Positions 15,078 to 23,982 of a stretch of DNA of 64,000 bases are shown here, one piece after another. The DNA is from Bacteroidota bacterium (GTDB taxonomy: Bacteria; Bacteroidota; Bacteroidia; B-17B0; Aurantibacillaceae), in NCBI GenBank assembly GCA_013697245.1, contig JACCXH010000026.1, positions 1 to 64,000 on the forward strand. The letters run 5' to 3'. The position numbers were made by a program, and so were the translations under genes. Position 1 is the stretch's first letter, and every line of letters starts with the position of its first letter. Under the pieces are notes generated by a model. It was not told the origin of the DNA and did no database searches. It saw nothing but the letters and a program-made list of their open reading frames with translations.

Positions 15078-17474
15078 ATGAGGAAACTAATACTTCTTAC
15101 TATATTTTTAGTTTCTGTAACTGTTCACGCTCAAACAGATACTTCGCTTAATTTTTCCCCTTTAGACAAATTATCGCCCGATGAATTATTACAACATTAT
15201 ATCAACGAAAAAGAACCGGTTTCTTTATACAAAGGACCATTCGAAAAAGCAGGAGATTCTCTATACAATCAAATAAACCCTTTAACTATTCCTACACAAA
15301 CGGTTTATGCTGATGCTTTGTACAGGCAGGGAATTGAGATGGAAAACTCAAAGAGCAACCAGGAAGATACTACAGATAATGCCGATCAACAATTAAAGCC
15401 AAAGATCTCCATAGGCATGGGGCGTCTGGGTTATCATGGCGATCTTTACCAACGCCACTTTCAATCGCCACTTACCGCGCGAATGGCCTATGATCTTAAT
15501 ATCTCTCAACGTTTAACGCGTTATTTACAATTAAATTTTAATGTTATGTTTGGCAAATTAGGTGCCGATGAATATACGTTGAACAGGAATGAAAATTTTC
15601 AATCTGAGATCCGTGCCGGTGGCGTAAATTTAATGTACGACTTCGGAAATTTTATTCCGGATCTATATAAAGTAAGACCATTTGTTACTATTGGTGTTAC
15701 AGGTTTTGAATTTTTAAGTAAAACAGATCTTAAAGATAAGAACGGAAACACCTACTATTACTGGAGCGATGGAAGTATTAAAGATATGCCCGAAGGTACG
15801 GCAGGCTCGCAAAATGCAAAAGACCTTGTGCGTGATTATTATTATGAAACAGATATCAGAGAACGTAATGCCGATGGTTTTGGTAAATACCAAGAGAGAG
15901 CTTGGTCTATGCCAATTGGCGGCGGTGCTATTATAAAAGTGACGGATCGCGTTGATTTTAAATTGAATTTTCAATATTATTTTACAACAACCGATTATTT
16001 AGATGGCGTATCTAACAAAAGTGTTGGTAATAGGATAGGTACAAAACAAAAAGATAATTTTACTTACACCTCTTTTGCTTTACAATACGATCTGATTGCA
16101 AAACCGCGCCAACAGAAAAAACTGGGTAGAGATACACTTAACGATGCATTTTGGTTAGCCTTTGATAAAGAAGACAGGGATAAAGACGGTGTTGTAGATA
16201 TGATGGACGATTGCCAGGGAACGCCGGAAGGCGTGAAGGTAGACGCAAAAGGCTGTCCATTGGATGATGATAAAGATGGGATTCCGAATTACAGAGATGA
16301 TGAATTGGCAACGCCTTTGGGTGTGCCGGTGAATGAAAAAGGAGTTGGACAAACAGATGATTACTGGGCAGCATGGTATGCGCAATACTTAAATGATTCT
16401 ACAGGCATGGATAAAACAACGGAATATGTTGGAAATATCTTTGCGTTGAACAAGAAAAAAACAAAACTGGGTGTAGATAAAGAAGCCTATACAGTTGAAT
16501 TAATAAGGTACACAGGCTCCATACCAACAGATGAGTTGGCATTTTTATTAAGCATTGGCGATATTAATTCTACTACTTTAGATGATGGTACAACGGTAGT
16601 TTACACTTCGGGTAATTACGATAAAGTAAGTTCAGCTGTAAAACGCAGAGATGAATTTAGAAAAGATGGTAATAAGAGTGCGGGTGTATCAAGAATAAAA
16701 GGAAAAAATATTACCCAGGTTACTGATTCTGAATTAGCCGCATTAATTAAGAAGGAAGACGAAGAATTTGCTAAGCTTACCGCTTTAAATACTGCTACAG
16801 CAAATAACACAGGCACAAATACTGCAATTACAAATACAGCAGCTGTTAACACAAATACTGCCGCAGAGATAAGCGAAACGTTTAATAAAGCAGATGTGGT
16901 ATACCGTGTGCAGTTAGGCGCATTTAAAAATAAAATCTCAACCAGTGTATTTAATACCAGCGCCGGTGTGTTAGAATTAAAAACAGGCGAAAGCATTTTC
17001 CGTTATGTTACTAAAGGTTATAAAACTATTGATGAAGCGGCCGCCGTGCGAGCGGATCTTGTGGTACAAGGTTACAGCGATGCCTTTGTAACAGCCTATA
17101 AAGAAGGAAAACGTGTCGCCTTAAATACCACAAAGGCAACTGTAGATAAAAAATACAAGGAAGACTTGAACGAAGAAAAAATATTTAGCTCGGTTGACAA
17201 AAAATTAGTGACCTTTAAAATACAATTAGGCTCACTTAAAAAAGCGGCATTAGAAAAAATAATTGACGATAAATTTAAAGATCTGAAGGATGTAGAAAAA
17301 CAAACTACAGTTTCGGGTAGCATCCGCTATTCATCCGGTAACTTTAACCGTTACGATGCCGCAGAAAAATACCAAAAAGAGCTTGTAGACAAAGGTTTTT
17401 CTGATGCCTTTATCATTGCTACCTTTAAGAACGAGATCATCTCTATACAAGAGGCGATGGAGTTATTGAAGTAA
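15078..17474 (+). CDS. Outer-membrane beta-barrel-like protein with TSP3-type and SPOR-like repeats
   Basis: The product is 798 residues with a cleavable signal (MRKLILLTIFLVSVTVHAQ). Residues about 110-340 show alternating beta strands as in an outer-membrane barrel (PKISIGMGRLGYHGDL to FTYTSFALQYDL). A calcium-binding thrombospondin type 3-like segment follows at about 365-415 (DRDKDGVVDMMDDCQGTP, DDDKDGIPNYRDDE). A periplasmic region then carries a degenerate and two clear SPOR-like repeats: VVYRVQLGAFKNKIS near 615 and VTFKIQLGSLKKAAL near 713. The pair with the preceding gene (35-base gap) suggests an outer-membrane to peptidoglycan assembly, perhaps related to division or gliding; this is inference. 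Confidence 0.6.
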   Translation: MRKLILLTIFLVSVTVHAQTDTSLNFSPLDKLSPDELLQHYINEKEPVSLYKGPFEKAGDSLYNQINPLTIPTQTVYADALYRQGIEMENSKSNQEDTTDNADQQLKPKISIGMGRLGYHGDLYQRHFQSPLTARMAYDLNISQRLTRYLQLNFNVMFGKLGADEYTLNRNENFQSEIRAGGVNLMYDFGNFIPDLYKVRPFVTIGVTGFEFLSKTDLKDKNGNTYYYWSDGSIKDMPEGTAGSQNAKDLVRDYYYETDIRERNADGFGKYQERAWSMPIGGGAIIKVTDRVDFKLNFQYYFTTTDYLDGVSNKSVGNRIGTKQKDNFTYTSFALQYDLIAKPRQQKKLGRDTLNDAFWLAFDKEDRDKDGVVDMMDDCQGTPEGVKVDAKGCPLDDDKDGIPNYRDDELATPLGVPVNEKGVGQTDDYWAAWYAQYLNDSTGMDKTTEYVGNIFALNKKKTKLGVDKEAYTVELIRYTGSIPTDELAFLLSIGDINSTTLDDGTTVVYTSGNYDKVSSAVKRRDEFRKDGNKSAGVSRIKGKNITQVTDSELAALIKKEDEEFAKLTALNTATANNTGTNTAITNTAAVNTNTAAEISETFNKADVVYRVQLGAFKNKISTSVFNTSAGVLELKTGESIFRYVTKGYKTIDEAAAVRADLVVQGYSDAFVTAYKEGKRVALNTTKATVDKKYKEDLNEEKIFSSVDKKLVTFKIQLGSLKKAALEKIIDDKFKDLKDVEKQTTVSGSIRYSSGNFNRYDAAEKYQKELVDKGFSDAFIIATFKNEIISIQEAMELLK

Positions 17475-17478
17475 CTAC

Positions 17479-17571
17479 GGCCTCACCCTCCTGTCCCTCT
17501 CCAAAGGAGAGGGAAGATCAAGCCACAGTCCTGATAGCTATCTTGATCGCTGATCGCACAGATTTTATTTA
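17479..17571 (+). repeat. Left copy of a ~90-bp composite inverted repeat
   Basis: It starts five bases after the stop of the SPOR-repeat gene. In order it contains GGCCTCACCCT, the stem-loop CCCTCTCC-AAA-GGAGAGGG, AGATCAAGCCACAG, a degenerate GATAGCTATC palindrome (17529-17546) and CACAGATTTTATTTA. The same blocks occur in the same order, in reverse orientation, at 20371-20461. Together the two copies frame the accessory genes between them. Confidence 0.85.
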
Positions 17572-17637: not shown

Positions 17638-17720
17638 ACAGATAAGTAGCGCCTATCTGCAAGTTAGTGGCAATGTGTCGACAGACGCATTTTCGAAAAA
17701 AGTCCCTAACTTAGACGACA

Positions 17721-18164
17721 ATGAAACATGAAAAATATCAACTTGAGTCGGACAGAAAACAGTTATTATTTGAGTTCACAAGCACTGGACCAAAAGGCAA
17801 AATAAAAAAACAGGTTCAATACTCTGAGACAAATCTCAAAAATTATTATATACTTGCTTTCGGTGATCACGACGAAAAGACAAATGATATTGACGATACA
17901 GTAATTACAAACAATGGCGACAGTAGAAAAGTCCTGGCGACAGTCGCAGCGACAGTTTACGCTTTTACCTTTAAACACCCAGAAGCATGGGTTCATATCG
18001 AGGGTAGCACACATATCCGGACACGCTTATACAGAATGGGAATCACAAACAACATTCTCGAAATCAAAAAGGACTTTATTGTCAACGGACTAAAAGACGA
18101 CAAATGGCTTCCTTTTCGCCGTGGAGTTGAATATGAAGCATTTTTAATCAAACGAAAAAAGTAG
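17721..18164 (+). CDS. DUF6934-like protein of unknown function
   Basis: The product is 147 residues, soluble, and starts at an ATG ten bases after the motif TTAGACGACAATG region begins. Recognisable segments are LFEFTSTGPKGKIKKQVQY, YYILAFGD, NNGDSRKVLATVAATVYAF and IEGSTHIRTRLYRMGI. Together they match my memory of the DUF6934 family in Bacteroidota, whose role is not established. A 53-residue lysine-rich ORF starts 13 bases downstream and may be its partner, which would resemble a two-gene toxin-antitoxin or defence cassette; this is speculation. The gene sits in a cassette-like unit between GTTAGTGGC (17663) and an attC-like palindrome (18335 onward). Confidence 0.6.
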   Translation: MKHEKYQLESDRKQLLFEFTSTGPKGKIKKQVQYSETNLKNYYILAFGDHDEKTNDIDDTVITNNGDSRKVLATVAATVYAFTFKHPEAWVHIEGSTHIRTRLYRMGITNNILEIKKDFIVNGLKDDKWLPFRRGVEYEAFLIKRKK

Positions 18165-18172
18165 TATATTTG
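18165..18172 (+). promoter_or_regulatory. Possible -7 promoter element (TATATTTG)
   Basis: TATATTTG matches TAnnTTTG and lies immediately after the DUF6934-like stop codon, four bases before the ATG of the next small ORF. A TTTT (18142-18145) sits at the -33 distance. If active it would give a leaderless mRNA for the small ORF. No other evidence. Confidence 0.35.
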
Positions 18173-18176
18173 TATC

Positions 18177-18338
18177 ATGACAGTTTCAATCAAAAAATTG
18201 AATAAAACTAAGACTCCTATCGTTAAAATCAACGACAAGTTGAATAAGCTTGCTGAAAAAGTTCTGTTTCCGGAAAAACTTAGAAAAGCGAACGACACTC
18301 TAAAAAGAGTTGGACTTCCAAAAACACACAGCCGCTAA
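18177..18338 (+). CDS. Small basic protein downstream of the DUF6934-like gene
   Basis: This 53-codon ORF reads MTVSIKKLNKTKTPIVKIND and continues to GLPKTHSR. It is rich in Lys and Leu, predicted helical, with no membrane segment or signal. It is 13 bases after the DUF6934-like gene and ends right at the attC-like palindrome, as a cassette gene would. A TATATTTG element lies just upstream of its ATG. No family is recognised. The ATG, codon use and position support a real gene, but its size keeps confidence moderate. Confidence 0.5.
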   Translation: MTVSIKKLNKTKTPIVKINDKLNKLAEKVLFPEKLRKANDTLKRVGLPKTHSR

Positions 18339-18507
18339 CAGCAACTACAAGTAATTGGCACGGACGAGGTCATCACAAAGCCAATTTATTGCCTGCTTAG
18401 CAGACTTTTAATTTTCTTTTGACTTTGCTAACAAACATTTGTACATTTAATAAACATTTGTGGTTATAGACAGTTGAGTGTTCCAAACGCCAACTACTTG
18501 TAGTCGC
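18335..18507 (+). repeat. attC-like palindromic site 1 (3' end displaced by the IS110 element)
   Basis: GCTAAC at 18334-18339 is followed by the arm GCAACTACAAGTAATTGGC (18341-18359). This pairs with GCCAACTACTTGTAGTCGC (18489-18507) at 17 of 19 positions, about 170 bases end to end. The inner segment GCTAACAAACATTT (18427-18440) is alignable with GCTAAGAAACATTT (20289-20302) of site 2. The expected terminal GTTA.TGG of the site is found on the far side of the IS element (GTTAATGG, 19766-19773), as if the element split the site. Confidence 0.65.
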
Positions 18508-18545
18508 ATTCCAAGGTAAAAAACAAATCTTTTAACAATTATTTT

Positions 18546-19550
18546 TTACGCTGCAAATTTATTCATCTCAACAAACGGTGTCCCTCTTTTAACTGTTGCA
18601 AAAATTCTTGAAACAATTTTATTGCGAATAATATTTAGCACAAGCATTTTTGGTTTACCTTCTTCTACTCTTTTCTTAAAATAAATTTTCAACTCTTTAT
18701 CTGACTGAATTGCACTTATGGCTGACATGGATAATAAGCTCTTCATTTTTTTATCACTGATGGAATGATTTCTTGGTTTGCGATGAATGCTCGTTCCTGA
18801 TTGATATGGAAATGGCACCAAGCCAAAATAGGATGAGAATTCTCGCCATGTTTCGAAACGAGTATAGTTGTGGGTATGTAATAACATTTGAGTTGCTAAA
18901 ACATTTCCTACACCTTTTACGCTTTTGCTCATCTTATAATTTTTCTGCATTTGATCTTCTGTTTTTATCAGAGTTTGCATTGCTTTTTCAACTTTCTTTA
19001 TTTGAACTTCCATATGCTTTAAGCTTTGCTTTATTATCCCAATACCTAGATCTCCTGTTTTCTTTTCTAAGGTTACTTGCATCCCTTTACTTAAGCTTTT
19101 TAAAGCCGTGCTTTGTTTTACAAGCTGTTCTCTCAAACTCATGAGTCTTTGCAGTTCAATTAATTTAACCGGCATAGGAATTGAAGTTTCTAATTCTTCC
19201 TTTCTTAACCACGCAAACCTGGCTATTTCTTCTGCATCTTGCTTATCTGTTTTTCCTCTTTTTAAACCCATTGAGCGTTTTATCTCTATTGGATTAACAC
19301 AACAGTAATGCTGTTTGTTTTCGTGCATAAAATGGCTCAGCAAAACGCAATACCATCCTGTGTGTTCAAAGCACCAGATCACCCCCTCTGTGTTCTTTGT
19401 TTCTTGTTTTACCCACTTAAGCAAACCTTCAAAGCCTTTCTTATTATTTAAAAACTGCTTGTGAAGTCGCTTTGTGTGAATAAACACATCTAAGGTTAGT
19501 TTGGATACATCAATACCAACACTCTCTTTAATTTCCTTCTCTTTTTTCAT
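18546..19550 (-). CDS. IS110-family transposase (DEDD recombinase)
   Basis: This is an RNA-guided recombinase of the IS110 family, 334 residues. The RuvC-like DEDD domain shows GIDVSKLTLDVFI (D14), WCFEHTGWY (E62) and KTDKQDAEEIARFA (D102, D105). A coiled-coil region covers about 130-205. The C-terminal transposase_20 domain has SVKGVGNVLATQMLLHTHNY, FSSYFGLVPFPYQSG with the probable catalytic serine at 251, and a basic tail. All key residues are present and the frame is intact, so it may be active. The non-coding end lies upstream of the gene, the arrangement of the IS110 group proper and not the IS1111 group. It is preceded by the bridge-RNA segment. Confidence 0.93.
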   Translation of the reverse strand: MKKEKEIKESVGIDVSKLTLDVFIHTKRLHKQFLNNKKGFEGLLKWVKQETKNTEGVIWCFEHTGWYCVLLSHFMHENKQHYCCVNPIEIKRSMGLKRGKTDKQDAEEIARFAWLRKEELETSIPMPVKLIELQRLMSLREQLVKQSTALKSLSKGMQVTLEKKTGDLGIGIIKQSLKHMEVQIKKVEKAMQTLIKTEDQMQKNYKMSKSVKGVGNVLATQMLLHTHNYTRFETWREFSSYFGLVPFPYQSGTSIHRKPRNHSISDKKMKSLLSMSAISAIQSDKELKIYFKKRVEEGKPKMLVLNIIRNKIVSRIFATVKRGTPFVEMNKFAA

Positions 19551-19574
19551 ACTTTTGTTTTTAACGTTAGTAAA

Positions 19575-19721
19575 TAAAACTTGCTTGACTATTGCCTTTA
19601 GCGGGCCTTAAAGCCTATCATTCCAATTGGTTCTAGCAAGTCTGAATATGGAAACGGGACTAATGCGACCATTAGGGCTTCTCACCTACAAAACGTTTAA
19701 GTTCACCCGTTTCCTATTCAG
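19575..19721 (-). ncRNA. IS110 bridge RNA (guide RNA for target and donor)
   Basis: Stem 1 pairs 19706-19720 with 19643-19658 (15 pairs, one bulge) and encloses a hairpin at 19660-19675. Stem 2 pairs 19635-19641 with 19579-19585 and encloses 19596-19613. Four guides lie in the order known for IS621. The left-target guide AACGTTTTG (19697-19689) equals the left-junction sequence at 19768-19760. The right-target guide GTCGCATT (19669-19662) is complementary to the right junction, whose plus strand reads the same at 18503-18510. The left-donor guide TTGGAATG (19626-19619) equals the right end of the element at 18514-18507. The right-donor guide CTAAAGGCAA (19601-19592) is complementary to the left end at 19762-19753. 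Transcript ends are approximate. Confidence 0.85.
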
Positions 19722-19752
19722 TTAATTTATTGTATTTTTATATAAATACAAA
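19722..19752 (-). promoter_or_regulatory. Possible promoter of the bridge RNA
   Basis: On the minus strand TTTG (19752-19749) and TAAATTAA (19729-19722) are exactly 19 bases apart. The -7 box matches TAnnTTTG at four of six fixed positions. The predicted start falls at the first bases of stem 1, which is slightly late, so the exact box is uncertain. Confidence 0.4.
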
Positions 19753-19819
19753 CTAAAGGCAAAACGTTAATGGTAATAGCCGAGAAGACATCGCAAAAAC
19801 AATTTCATAATTATTGCAA

Positions 19820-20140
19820 ATGCAGACAGACAAAAAAACATCGGACAGTTTTGGTAAACTCGCCAAAATAACTTCTAAATGGTGGTCGGTTATTCTTATT
19901 TTAATTCCCCAATTATTTTGTCAATTCTTATTTGCTTATCGAACAATAATTCATATTCCGGATGATCATGAATGTGGACCAGGTTCATTATTTGCGCCAT
20001 TATTTCTTACTGCTGCACTGACACTTCCTTTAGTTTTAATATTATATTTAGTAGGAGGCTTCACTTTAAAAGATAAACAAATTGCGTATTCATTGTTTTT
20101 TTTTCCGACTCTAATTAACATTGTGGTTTCATTCATTTAA
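19820..20140 (+). CDS. Small membrane protein of unknown function
   Basis: The product is 106 residues from the ATG at 19820 (MQTDKKTSDSFGKL); a TTG two codons upstream is less likely. Three hydrophobic helices are seen at about 23-42 (WWSVILILIPQLFCQFLFAY), 59-81 (PLFLTAALTLPLVLILYLVGG) and 87-106. The short loop between the first two is acidic with a His-Glu-Cys (DDHECGPG). No family is recognised. It is the single gene of the second cassette-like unit, lying between GTTAATGG (19766) and the attC-like site that starts at CCACTAAC (20197). Confidence 0.5.
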   Translation: MQTDKKTSDSFGKLAKITSKWWSVILILIPQLFCQFLFAYRTIIHIPDDHECGPGSLFAPLFLTAALTLPLVLILYLVGGFTLKDKQIAYSLFFFPTLINIVVSFI

Positions 20141-20196
20141 ATAAAATTAATGGTAGACGACACACGAGCACATGTTAAACTGTGTGTGGCTACAAC

Positions 20197-20361
20197 CACT
20201 AACAGCAAGCAAGCGCAAGCGGGCGGACGTATAAGGCTCTTGCAAATTTAAGGTCGCTTCGCATACAGAAATTTTCATTTTCCAAAAGGCTAAGAAACAT
20301 TTATTTTTAAATAAACGTTTCGGCAGACAATGTTTTATAAACCTGCATGCGCCTGCTTGGA
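20197..20361 (+). repeat. attC-like palindromic site 2
   Basis: CCACTAACAGC (20197-20207) leads into AAGCAAGCGCAAGCGGG, which pairs imperfectly with CCTGCATGCGCCTGCTTGG (20343-20361). The inner part GCTAAGAAACATTT (20289-20302), then ATAAACGTTT and GACAATGTTTTATAAAC, aligns with the corresponding inner part of site 1. Two copies with shared interior and diverged arms suggest a family of recombination or repeat sites. Confidence 0.6.
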
Positions 20362-20370
20362 AACCCTTAA

Positions 20371-20461
20371 TAAATCAATCTGTGTAATTCGAGATCCCGA
20401 TAGCTATCGGCACTGTGGCTTTGAAGTCCTTCTCCATTGGAGAAGGATTTAGGATGAGGCC
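20371..20461 (-). repeat. Right copy of the ~90-bp composite inverted repeat
   Basis: Read on the minus strand it gives GGCCTCATCCTAAATCC, the stem-loop TCCTTCTCC-AAT-GGAGAAGGA, CAAAGCCACAGTG, the palindrome core CCGATAGCTATCGG (20397-20410) and ACACAGATTGATTTA. This is the same block order as 17479-17571. It begins three bases after the stop of the PP2C regulator gene. Confidence 0.85.
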
Positions 20462-20463
20462 GA

Positions 20464-23400
20464 TTAAAACTTAAACCCTATCACCAAAATATCATCTACT
20501 TGCTCGTGTGGGCCTTTCCAGGCAAGGTGTTCGGCTTTTATGTTGTTGTGCTGCGATGCAAAGTCGAGATCCGAATTTTTAATAATAAGCTCTTTTAATT
20601 TACCGGTACTGTATTTTTTTTCTTTGCTACCACCAAACTGGTCGGCATAACCATCGGTAAAAATGTAGAAGGATTCGCCCTTATCTAATTTAAACGTATG
20701 CGTGGTATAAGCTATTTTTTCAACCCTGTCTTGTTGTTTGGTGCCAATCGGGATCTTATCTGCTTTAACCTCTCTTAACTCTTTATTGGCTACTATCCAC
20801 AGCGGGCGCATAGCGCCGGCATAATGCAAGGTATTTGTTTTATGGTCTATTTTACAAATGGCGCAATCCATTCCGTCTTTCGATTCAGATTCGTTCTTGT
20901 AAAGCGTTTCTAACACGCCATTATTTAATTCAAATAAAATATCTTTTGGGTCGGTTATTTTTTGTTCGTTAACGATCTTGTTCAAAATATTATAACCAAT
21001 TAAACTCATAAATGCCCCGGGAACCCCGTGGCCCGTACAATCTATGGCTGCAATAATGCTGCAGTCATCAAAATGCGCGAACCAATAAAAATCACCGCTC
21101 ACAATATCTTTGGTCATGTATAGTACAAAAGATTGCGGAATGTGTTTTTGGATCAACGCATTTTCAGGTAAAATAGCATGTTGGATCTTACGTGCATAAG
21201 AAATACTATCGGTAATATCTTTATTTTTTTGTTCAATTATCTTTTGTTGCTTTTTCGATTCGGTAATATCACTGTCAATAATAATTAATTTTTTTATTTT
21301 TTCATCCTCATCAAAAATAGGGGTCAGTGTAGAGGCTTCCCAAACCTGGTTCTCAGGATTCTTGGTGTTGAAAGATTCGTATTTAATAGAACGTTTGGTT
21401 GAAACGGCCTCATCTACAAAATCTTTTATACGTGAATTATTGCTGGATGTAAAGATGTTGAGTTTTTTATCTAAGATCTCTTTTAAAGTAATTTTATTTA
21501 GTCTTGTAAAACTTTCGTTCACATATTCAATATCACCGTTTGGTTTTAAGATCAACACCACATTGTCTGTACGGCTTGCTACTATTGAGAGTTGTTCGAG
21601 TTCTTTATTGGCCTCAGCAATTATCTCAGATTGTTTTTCGATTTCTTTTGTACGCTGCGCTACTTTTTCTTCCAACACTAAATTTTCTTTTTGAAGGGCT
21701 TTTAACCTATATTTTACGAACGAATAAATTACAAGAAAAGCTACAACTGCAACAATTACCCAGAACCACCATTTTTTCCAGATAGGCGAGAGGATCACAA
21801 ACGAAAATGTGGTAGGTTCGCTCCATACATCTTCTTCGTTCTTGGCCTGCACCAAAAAGGTATAAGAGCCTGCGCCAAGGTTATTATAATTAATTAATTT
21901 ACCCTCGTTAGAATAGAGCCAGGCATCTTCAAAGCCGGTTAATTTATAACGGTACGAAAGTTTATCCGGGTTTTTAAGCCAGATAGCATCAAAGGTAAAA
22001 GCCAAATTATTTTGTTTGTAAGAAAATTCAAAGGTAGAATCGAGTGGGAAGGGCTTATAATTAATTTGAAGTGCTTTAATAAAAGCAATGGGTTTAATTG
22101 AATCCAGGGCCTCCTGGCTTGTTCTGTAAACTAAAACACCATTGTTAGTACCACTGTAAATTTTATTGTCGCTTAAAAAAACCGCGTTTAAGTTGGGTTC
22201 CAGGTCGCCATCAAACAGGTCGTAATAACTCACCGAATTATCTACACAATTTATTTTATCGATGCCTTTTGAGTTGATCGAAAAAACAATATCTTCGGTA
22301 GCTATTAACTGTTGGGGCTGTTCGTCGCGCAAGCCATTTTGTTGGGTAAAGGAAATAATAGTTTTACCATCGTATTTTATAACACCATTAGCATTAGAAG
22401 AAGCCCAAATAGAATTGTATTTGTCTTTACATAAAGAAACAATAGTATTTGAATTCAATTTAAATTTTTGTGTCAGGCTAATAAACTTTTCGTTCTCTAA
22501 AATTTGCAAACCGCCTCCATCTGTTGCTATATATAGCTTCCCGTTGTTATCGGTTATGGCTGCGTAAACATAATTACTTCCCAGGCCTTCAGTCTCCGTG
22601 TATGTTTTCTCTACCTTGAACTGTTTTTTCTCGCCCTCTAATTCAAATTTGGCTTTAATTAAACCGCCACCAAGTGTAGAAATATATACGGTAGAATTAT
22701 CAGAAAAATAAATGTTAGATACATTATCGTTCGAAAGATTGTAATTTTTTGAATTAATAATAAAGCTATTTTTGTTTTGAGAACTTAAAATAACCAGCCC
22801 GTTACCATACGTGCCAAACCAGATGCTGCCGTCGGGGGCCTTGGCAGCGCAGGAAATGGTATACTTGGTAGCTTCCTGAACTTTAGACACTACCAACTTT
22901 CCTTCATCATCGCTCATTATTTTTGAGATGCCGTTTACCGTACCAACCCAAATGGCATGATCGTTATCTGTGGCAAGCGCAAGGATCTTATCGTCGGTTA
23001 AACCTTTTGAGGCATTAATAAAATCATAACGCCTGTCGTAAAACTGGCTGATGCCTTTTTTAGAAGCGATCCAGATCTGCTTGGCATTATCAATAAACAA
23101 CTGATTAATACCTGTTGTTTGAAGGTACTTTTCATAATTATAAATAGAGATAACGCCGTTATGTATTTGCAGGAAGCCATTTTTTTCGGTGGCTATAATT
23201 GTTTTGCCCACTTGGCTACTGGCGTTAATAACGGTTCCCATGCTCCAGTTGGCAAAGAAAGGAACACGCTCTATTTTTAAATTGCTAAGGTTGTAGGTGC
23301 ACACGCCCGAATCCTGCATCGAGATCATCAAACGATTGTTCTCATAAAAAATATCCCTTACAATATTATCGGGCAAGCCAATTTTATTTGAAATGATCTT

Positions 23401-23982
23401 AAACGCCGGAATGCTGCTGATGGTTGTTATTTCGGTGATGCCGCCATCTGTAGCGCACCAAACAATATTCTTTCCATCGGTGGTAAGTTTGTAAACAACA
23501 TTATCGCTAAGGCCTTTTTCTGAATTAATATTTTTTAGTTCGTTGTTATTGTAAGTATAAATTCCATTTCCATAGGTACCAAAACAAAGTGTAGAATTTA
23601 TTTCACAAATAGATGTTATTTTTTCTTCGTTTGCTTTTGCGCCAAAATTAAGAGAGTCGATTTTATTATTCTTAAAAGAATATATTTTACCCGATTTGGT
23701 GCCGATCCAGGCAATTCCTTTGCTGTCAATAAACACAGAGGTGATGTCTTTTTTTAGGATTGGATTTTCTTTTGCTATTTGAACAGAAGTCTTACCGTCA
23801 AATTTAAAAACACCCTCGCTGGTACCCAGCCATAAAAAGCCAAATTTATCTTGTGTAATAACGTTTACAGCAACGTCTTTTTTACCGGTGAAGGAGAAAT
23901 AGTTTTTTACCTGTAATTGCGGGAATAGAAAAGAAGAATAAAAAAAAATGACAAAAAGTATTTTATTTTTTGTAAGCAGCAA
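20464..23982 (-). CDS. Two-component-propeller/PAS/PP2C (SpoIIE-type) signalling protein
   Basis: This 1172-residue membrane sensor ends in a serine phosphatase. The order is a signal segment (about 1-22), a periplasmic two-component-regulator beta-propeller with repeats such as GFLWLGTSEGVFKFDG and IWVGTVNGISK (about 25-660), a Y_Y_Y-type beta domain (about 660-735), one transmembrane helix (about 738-762), a coiled coil, a PAS domain (NVVLILKPNGDIEYVNESF, about 810-900) and a PP2C/SpoIIE phosphatase from about 929 (SYARKIQHAILPE, SGDFYWF, DCTGHGVPGAFMS). There is no histidine kinase or DNA-binding output, so it probably controls an anti-sigma-antagonist-type partner switch. The four-base gap to the YceI gene upstream suggests co-transcription. 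Confidence 0.88.
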   Translation of the reverse strand: MLLTKNKILFVIFFYSSFLFPQLQVKNYFSFTGKKDVAVNVITQDKFGFLWLGTSEGVFKFDGKTSVQIAKENPILKKDITSVFIDSKGIAWIGTKSGKIYSFKNNKIDSLNFGAKANEEKITSICEINSTLCFGTYGNGIYTYNNNELKNINSEKGLSDNVVYKLTTDGKNIVWCATDGGITEITTISSIPAFKIISNKIGLPDNIVRDIFYENNRLMISMQDSGVCTYNLSNLKIERVPFFANWSMGTVINASSQVGKTIIATEKNGFLQIHNGVISIYNYEKYLQTTGINQLFIDNAKQIWIASKKGISQFYDRRYDFINASKGLTDDKILALATDNDHAIWVGTVNGISKIMSDDEGKLVVSKVQEATKYTISCAAKAPDGSIWFGTYGNGLVILSSQNKNSFIINSKNYNLSNDNVSNIYFSDNSTVYISTLGGGLIKAKFELEGEKKQFKVEKTYTETEGLGSNYVYAAITDNNGKLYIATDGGGLQILENEKFISLTQKFKLNSNTIVSLCKDKYNSIWASSNANGVIKYDGKTIISFTQQNGLRDEQPQQLIATEDIVFSINSKGIDKINCVDNSVSYYDLFDGDLEPNLNAVFLSDNKIYSGTNNGVLVYRTSQEALDSIKPIAFIKALQINYKPFPLDSTFEFSYKQNNLAFTFDAIWLKNPDKLSYRYKLTGFEDAWLYSNEGKLINYNNLGAGSYTFLVQAKNEEDVWSEPTTFSFVILSPIWKKWWFWVIVAVVAFLVIYSFVKYRLKALQKENLVLEEKVAQRTKEIEKQSEIIAEANKELEQLSIVASRTDNVVLILKPNGDIEYVNESFTRLNKITLKEILDKKLNIFTSSNNSRIKDFVDEAVSTKRSIKYESFNTKNPENQVWEASTLTPIFDEDEKIKKLIIIDSDITESKKQQKIIEQKNKDITDSISYARKIQHAILPENALIQKHIPQSFVLYMTKDIVSGDFYWFAHFDDCSIIAAIDCTGHGVPGAFMSLIGYNILNKIVNEQKITDPKDILFELNNGVLETLYKNESESKDGMDCAICKIDHKTNTLHYAGAMRPLWIVANKELREVKADKIPIGTKQQDRVEKIAYTTHTFKLDKGESFYIFTDGYADQFGGSKEKKYSTGKLKELIIKNSDLDFASQHNNIKAEHLAWKGPHEQVDDILVIGFKF

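Follow-up and report, generated by a model that had tools for sequence, protein, structure and literature searches.

Integrons are the closest described relatives of the system considered here. In the classical form, the IntI recombinase gene stands next to an attI site, which receives the cassettes; the cassettes are mostly one-gene and co-directional, carry varied accessory cargo, and end in attC sites arranged as R''/L''...L'/R' around GTT, which have extrahelical bases and recombine as a folded single (bottom) strand. Integrase-less strays are known as clusters of attC sites lacking integron integrases (CALINs). An additional domain around patch III, I2, is the defining feature of IntI (PMC9668308). 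I2 is reported to dock extrahelical attC bases, and its gain is regarded as the step permitting single-strand cassette recombination, with the remark that an ancestral sequence is not known (PMC7790495, PMC4792948). In Bacteroidetes, IntegronFinder 2.0 reported only integrases without cassettes and one complete integron, in Salinibacter ruber (PMC9024848). The stretch analyzed here, referred to as the window, comprises 64,000 nucleotides (nt) of a Bacteroidota genome (contig JACCXH010000026.1, positions 1 to 64,000, assembly GCA_013697245.1). Judged by comparison with related genomes, it very probably holds two stray gene cassettes of an integron-like system that is widespread in Bacteroidota and whose recombinase lacks I2. 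We found no description of this system in the open-access literature (most subscription papers and preprints lay outside the search).

The system shares with classical integrons the recombinase-attI-cassette layout, the mostly one-gene co-directional cassettes, the R''/L''...L'/R' sites around GTT, the varied accessory cargo, and the integrase-less strays, and is integron-like in both layout and behavior. By the defining feature, however, it does not belong to the classical IntI family. In contrast to classical integrons, its recombinase has no I2 and carries an extra N-terminal domain, its core is the 9-nt GTTRNNNNN, and its sites form a symmetric 13+1+6 stem, mostly without one-sided bulges. 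Its attI lies behind the 3' end of the recombinase gene, and its cassettes share the strand of that gene; archaeal integrons in which attI comes immediately after intI have been reported too (PMC9668308).

Cassette arrays behind the recombinase gene

Sequence comparison demonstrates the architecture, the linkage to the recombinase, the site geometry, and the change of content exactly at the core. A complete system comprises a recombinase gene and, on its strand, first an attI-like site (TATA[A/T]NNNNA|GTTR) and then the cassettes, which mostly have one gene. Every cassette opens with the 9-nt core and closes with its mirror, NNNNNYAAC, after which comes an attC-like palindrome. This palindrome usually consists of one A, 13 bp of L stem, a 1x1 mismatch, a second stem of 6 bp, and a loop, and a 5-nt spacer leads to the next core. 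Related genomes possess an intact recombinase (~350-390 aa in most); an attI-like site of this type lies about 70-110 nt past its stop, and cassette arrays come next on the same strand. The system was found in Flavobacterium, Chryseobacterium, Chitinophaga, Pedobacter, Algoriphagus, and relatives, and on plasmids. The GTTA/GCTA-type pattern is present in 38 of 53 loci (recombinases of at least 47% identity, mostly named records), and several others carry the same motif with GTTG. The contig ends no more than 3 kb downstream of the recombinase in 34 of these 53 loci, as expected if repeats come next. A small gene resembling Bro-N/ORF6N, named from reading the sequence and not from a family search, follows the recombinase stop directly in loci L063, L072, L078, L092, and L116, ahead of any att-like motif, and is a possible accessory gene.

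The relation between the two ends of a cassette was evaluated in 31 loci where the attI-like motif is followed by 500 nt or more of sequence. In 24 of them, an exact reverse complement of the first 9 nt of the downstream unit turns up after 0.2-3.5 kb, compared with a mean of 0.45 and a maximum of 3 in 500 permutations swapping downstream regions among loci. Within the window's own family, the figure is 7 of 9 (permutation mean 0.36). Recombinases of 38-46% identity, including those of Paludibacter and Nitrospirae, gave 10 of 19 (mean 0.74), indicating that the wider recombinase family takes part too. Chaining of units yielded 68 cassettes in 35 loci, 63 of them with an exact mirror, a count that is descriptive and not a test because chaining itself selects units by the mirror. 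Most cassettes carry one co-directional gene, and the longest open reading frame (ORF) runs in the direction of its cassette in 46 cases out of 52 (46 plus, 6 minus) and in 31 of 34 in a second set. The R core of classical attC sites is GTTRRRY/RYYYAAC; here the mirrored core is GTTRNNNNN over its full 9 nt, often violating GTTRRRY (e.g., GTTATAAGC and GTTAGCGGT). Several arrays show a mirror between successive sites as well, from the right core of the first to the end core of the second.

The geometry of the sites was derived from 33 chained sites picked without regard to it. For 31 of the 33, the best partner of the 5' arm is the 3' arm of the same site (13.4 vs 5.9), and pairing by position gives a 13-bp stem, one unpaired position (5% paired), and 6 bp. 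The register is constant: on the 5' side a single A follows the end core, and on the 3' side the next core is preceded by five bases. It is exact in 20 of the 33 sites, and most others are off by one or two bases in spacer length. A one-sided bulge is unneeded in 22 of 30 scored sites. Both classical attC sites available for comparison, from a locus beside an IntI of another Bacteroidota class, need such a bulge; this was the only locus with an array found next to a Bacteroidota IntI and is too small a yardstick to bear the comparison alone. When a finder built on the fixed geometry scanned 80 loci, all of its 62 hits lay behind the recombinase and on the recombinase strand; the opposite strand, the reversed sequence, and 649 kb of upstream DNA gave no hit. 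In Fusibacter sp. 3D3 (L169), repeated 178-nt sites with the identical end core TCGTATAAC lie downstream of a distant recombinase; their geometry fits, and chaining fails.

The change of content at the core is illustrated by the Chryseobacterium plasmids NZ_CP041688.1 and NZ_CP094530.1, which share 96.8% identity from the last part of the recombinase gene through the attI-like site. Their homology stops at GTT, and wholly different genes follow. Of 67 pairs of loci whose cores differ, 41 lose their homology 3-6 nt inside the core. A different single cassette occupies the window's intergenic spot in each of the relatives G005 and G025, indicating that cassettes also settle away from attI; the same spot in G015 and G033 holds other short insertions with no recognized site. 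Classical integron cassettes likewise settle at attG sites, according to PMC12901181. In two Flavobacteriales metagenome-assembled genomes (L142 and L158), the first-cassette ends are ~95% similar and the interiors differ. The cargo is varied: among 30 cassette proteins there are single family matches including AIPR, HNH, GmrSD, PLD, SDR, and DUF4304, and PADLOC models with matches include NsnA, PD-T4-2_A, AbiU, and PtuB. The functions named are predictions from model matches, and for some cassettes the models are those of defense proteins.

The recombinase and its relatives

The recombinase carries the R-K-HxxR-H-Y catalytic set of tyrosine recombinases in conserved alignment columns (PF00589, E 1e-40). 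Its NCBIfam scores are 203-215 bits for IntI (TIGR02249, cut-off 265) and 216-225 for XerA (cut-off 220), a position between the two. For XerD it scores 189-200 bits against a cut-off of 329.6, whereas the host XerD reaches 335; the recombinase thus falls outside XerC/XerD and is distinct by these scores from the host's own XerD and XerC. The distance from KDR to HxLRHS is 67-68 residues, compared with 109 in IntI. The I2 region is missing, so the recombinase is not an IntI in the defining sense. The predicted structure (predicted local distance difference test, pLDDT, 84.5) best matches VchIntIA (2a3v) and XerA (5hxy) and includes the extra N-terminal domain, with the order E-E-H-E-E-H. A HARP-like motif was considered for this domain; it has no Pfam support and is not claimed. 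With XerA, XerC, and XerD, the recombinase shares the fold, the catalytic residues, and the lack of I2. Unlike them, it is not a dif-resolving housekeeping gene, is separate from the host XerC/XerD, has the additional domain, and is linked to cassette arrays.

In a 392-genome sample of the phylum, the recombinase is matched at E <= 1e-60 in 121 genomes. IntI exceeds its cut-off in 107 genomes of that sample, only one of them in the window's class, and in one of 87 genomes of the window's family, the source genome not being among them. A classical IntI of 443 bits occurs in L056 (G042:C26), a member of this family. On viral contigs, the best relatives are 47-53% identical over part of the protein only.

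In a quick tree, whose deep supports are moderate and branches long, XerC/XerD stand apart and IntI forms one clade (99) beside I2-less recombinases of Nitrospirae and Spirochaetes (89). An I2-less Nitrospirae recombinase of this neighborhood has a 71-nt attC-like site. The placement of IntI beside I2-less recombinases is the basis for a reading that we offer tentatively, as a possibility with rather less than even chances. The present system may represent a separate, possibly older integron class, in which an I2-less recombinase recombines folded attC-like hairpins without extrahelical bases, and the IntI clade may have arisen inside this radiation by gaining I2.

The cassette pair of the window and its source genome

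The two cassettes of the window lie apart from the recombinase locus as CALIN-like strays. Both bear the 9-nt start core GTTANNNNN, and all their parts are on the plus strand. Cassette 1 begins with the start core (R') GTTAGTGGC (17663-17671), of the same form as the attI-adjacent start cores of relatives. It contains a gene for a 147-aa DUF6934 family protein (17721-18164; PF22028, E 2.7e-56) and a second small ORF of 53 aa (18177-18338) that ends at site 1 and has no Pfam family over cut-off. The left part of attC-like site 1 (18331-18507), assigned from its L pairs, the family geometry, and BLAST matches in the genome, consists of R'' (18331-18339, GCCGCTAAC), A (18340), L'' (18341-18353), the 1x1 mismatch (18354), the second stem (18355-18360), the loop, and L' (18495-18507). 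The remainder of the site, with the spacer AAAAC and the start core of cassette 2, GTTAATGGT (core from 19766), is at 19761-19774. Cassette 2 encodes a hypothetical protein of 106 aa in an open frame with no Pfam match (19820-20140; from TTG at 19814 in the ORF list). Its attC-like site 2 (20195-20365), detected by the strict geometric finder (11/13 + 4/6), consists of R'' (20195-20203, ACCACTAAC), A (20204), L'' (20205-20217), the mismatch (20218), the second stem (20219-20224), the loop, the returning second stem (20341-20346), L' (20348-20360), and the spacer AAACC (20361-20365). The junction with host sequence, CTTAATAAA, follows at 20366-20374.

In each unit, start and end core are reverse complementary over 8 of their 9 nt (GCCGCTAAC for GTTAGTGGC and ACCACTAAC for GTTAATGGT), and the 13-nt L arm pairs at 12 of 13 positions in site 1 and 11 of 13 in site 2. 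Both palindromes are entered via CTAACAGC; their interiors are alignable and their arms differ. The first-pass annotation of the sequence had already described the boundary motifs of both units, their small accessory genes, and this shared entry with alignable interiors and differing arms, all of which we confirm. Its palindrome of unit 1 is a real site, within which it had missed an inserted element (see below).

The pair is flanked by a SPOR-domain gene (15078-17474) and a Reg_prop/SpoIIE gene on the minus strand (20464-23982). A 71-nt inverted repeat (76%; 17494-17564 and 20377-20447) that looks like a terminator-type intergenic repeat brackets it. Its left copy is in part similar to Rfam whalefall-1, though below threshold; an Rfam scan of the region gave no match over the gathering score.

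The source genome contains about a dozen further related sites, some of them in arrays. BLAST of site 1 against this genome gave 19 matches, a count that takes in site 1 itself and a few partial pieces; they are spread over a dozen contigs, with several ~1 kb apart in arrays, and further ones were added by the site 2 query. One unit on contig C69 starts with GTTATAAGC and ends with GCTTATAAC; another on C30 starts with GTTAGGTGC and ends with GCACCTAAC. The pattern CCRCTAAC..GTTARYGG has one match in the genome, and a search of the genome contigs with the DUF6934 protein as bait found no relatives by that route. The strict geometric finder returned only two sites on the genome's contigs, which we read as decay, and none in reversed sequence or on the opposite strand over 156 kb. 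Contig C13 holds a tyrosine recombinase gene with a frameshift in a T run and, directly behind its stop, an attI-like site (...GTATAAGGTA|GTTAGTGGTAATGC). The first-pass annotation was correct that no integrase lies in the window. It had also suggested a Bacteroidota-specific cassette system or a divergent CALIN, to be checked through further copies and an IntI-type recombinase. This suggestion is largely borne out, both checks being positive. The copies do delimit mostly single small genes of variable content, and a tyrosine recombinase gene with its own att site is present in the genome, but it has no I2 insert and is not IntI.

The element inside site 1 is an IS110-family insertion sequence (IS) between L' and the right core (18508-19760, minus strand; junctions GTAGTCGC|ATTCC and AAAGGC|AAAACGTTAATGG), present as a single copy in the genome. 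When it is excised in silico, the flanks join as GTAGTCGC|AAAACGTTAATGG, a normal site end like that of intact sites elsewhere in the genome. Its IS110 membership is indicated by a DEDD transposase with a Transposase_20 domain (334 aa, 18546-19550, minus; PF01548, E 6.1e-23; PF02371, E 2.7e-15) and a long non-coding region upstream of it. This 210-nt region (19551-19760, minus; fold z -3.86) is a candidate guide (bridge/seek) RNA. Its loop, within one long stem, bears two such sequences: AACGUUUUG, a match to the bottom strand of the target GCAAAACGTT, and GGUCGCA, of which GUCGCA matches the top strand TAGTCGCA. This arrangement of matches is the one described for seekRNA/bridge RNA guides and suggests a guide role for the RNA of this single-copy element.

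The IS1111-type elements ISKpn4 and ISPst6 have attC ends as targets (PMC11187229). Like them, the element of the window belongs to the RNA-guided DEDD transposase family and sits at one end of an attC-type site. Unlike them, it has the IS110-type layout (non-coding region upstream of tnp), another host group, a single copy, and a guide that is putative. Its position is independent support for the site end as a recurrent target. An IS110-family transposase also lies within the cassette region of the Chryseobacterium plasmid NZ_CP041688.1 (L317:11272-12273).

Mechanism and competing explanations

We propose that cassettes leave and enter as circles at GTT through the action of the recombinase, for which the folded palindrome most likely serves as a single-strand substrate. 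The asymmetry between short and long spacers may help to set orientation in place of extrahelical bases. With the recombinase of the source genome broken, the cassettes of the window, inserted away from attI, would be decaying relics.

Several points weigh against this account. The use of a single strand is our own inference, and the two window sites fold no more stably than shuffled sequences (z about -1); the family evidence and the geometry, not folding energy, were used to support these sites. The first-cassette mirror is absent in 7 of the 31 testable loci. The finder was tuned on sites taken partly from loci later scanned, although its empty controls are independent of this overlap. Moreover, the frameshift makes the activity of the recombinase in the source genome doubtful.

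A different account retains the same cassette system but assumes XerA- or Cre-like action on double-stranded cores with two strand exchanges, the palindromes being ordinary paired binding sites or having another purpose. The missing I2 insert, the general lack of one-sided bulges, and a fold as close to XerA as to IntI are in line with it, and a classical double-strand pathway has been argued to be possible in theory for integrons (PMC4792948). However, the arms are free in sequence yet still complementary, which suits a structural rather than a sequence signal, and the attC arms are not shared by attI. We consider this account unlikely, though it deserves serious weight.

Far less probable is a classical integron or CALIN, with cassettes made and moved by an IntI with I2 and the neighboring recombinase as a bystander. 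The GTTR core, the cassette form, and the cargo are integron-like, and IntI exists in other classes of the phylum. Nevertheless, the arrays lie directly behind the I2-less gene, never before it, the 9-nt core is often not GTTRRRY, and most scored sites do without one-sided bulges. IntI is over its cut-off in a single same-class genome and a single family genome, and its ownership of the arrays was rejected on the latter count. That the repeats are 3'-untranslated-region hairpins, terminators, or miniature inverted-repeat transposable elements with no tie to gene capture can practically be dismissed: they do sit behind genes and their calculated folding is unremarkable, but the start core mirrors its own end core 0.2-3 kb off, the sites occur on one strand only, and homology breaks at GTT.

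Returning to the cassette system with an I2-less recombinase, the most interesting question is whether the palindrome is handled as a folded single strand or as a double strand. Such a system would largely escape the definition used by IntegronFinder 2.0. As a natural cassette system without I2 and mostly without extrahelical bases, it would offer a direct test of the I2 model and bear on the origin and mechanism of integrons.

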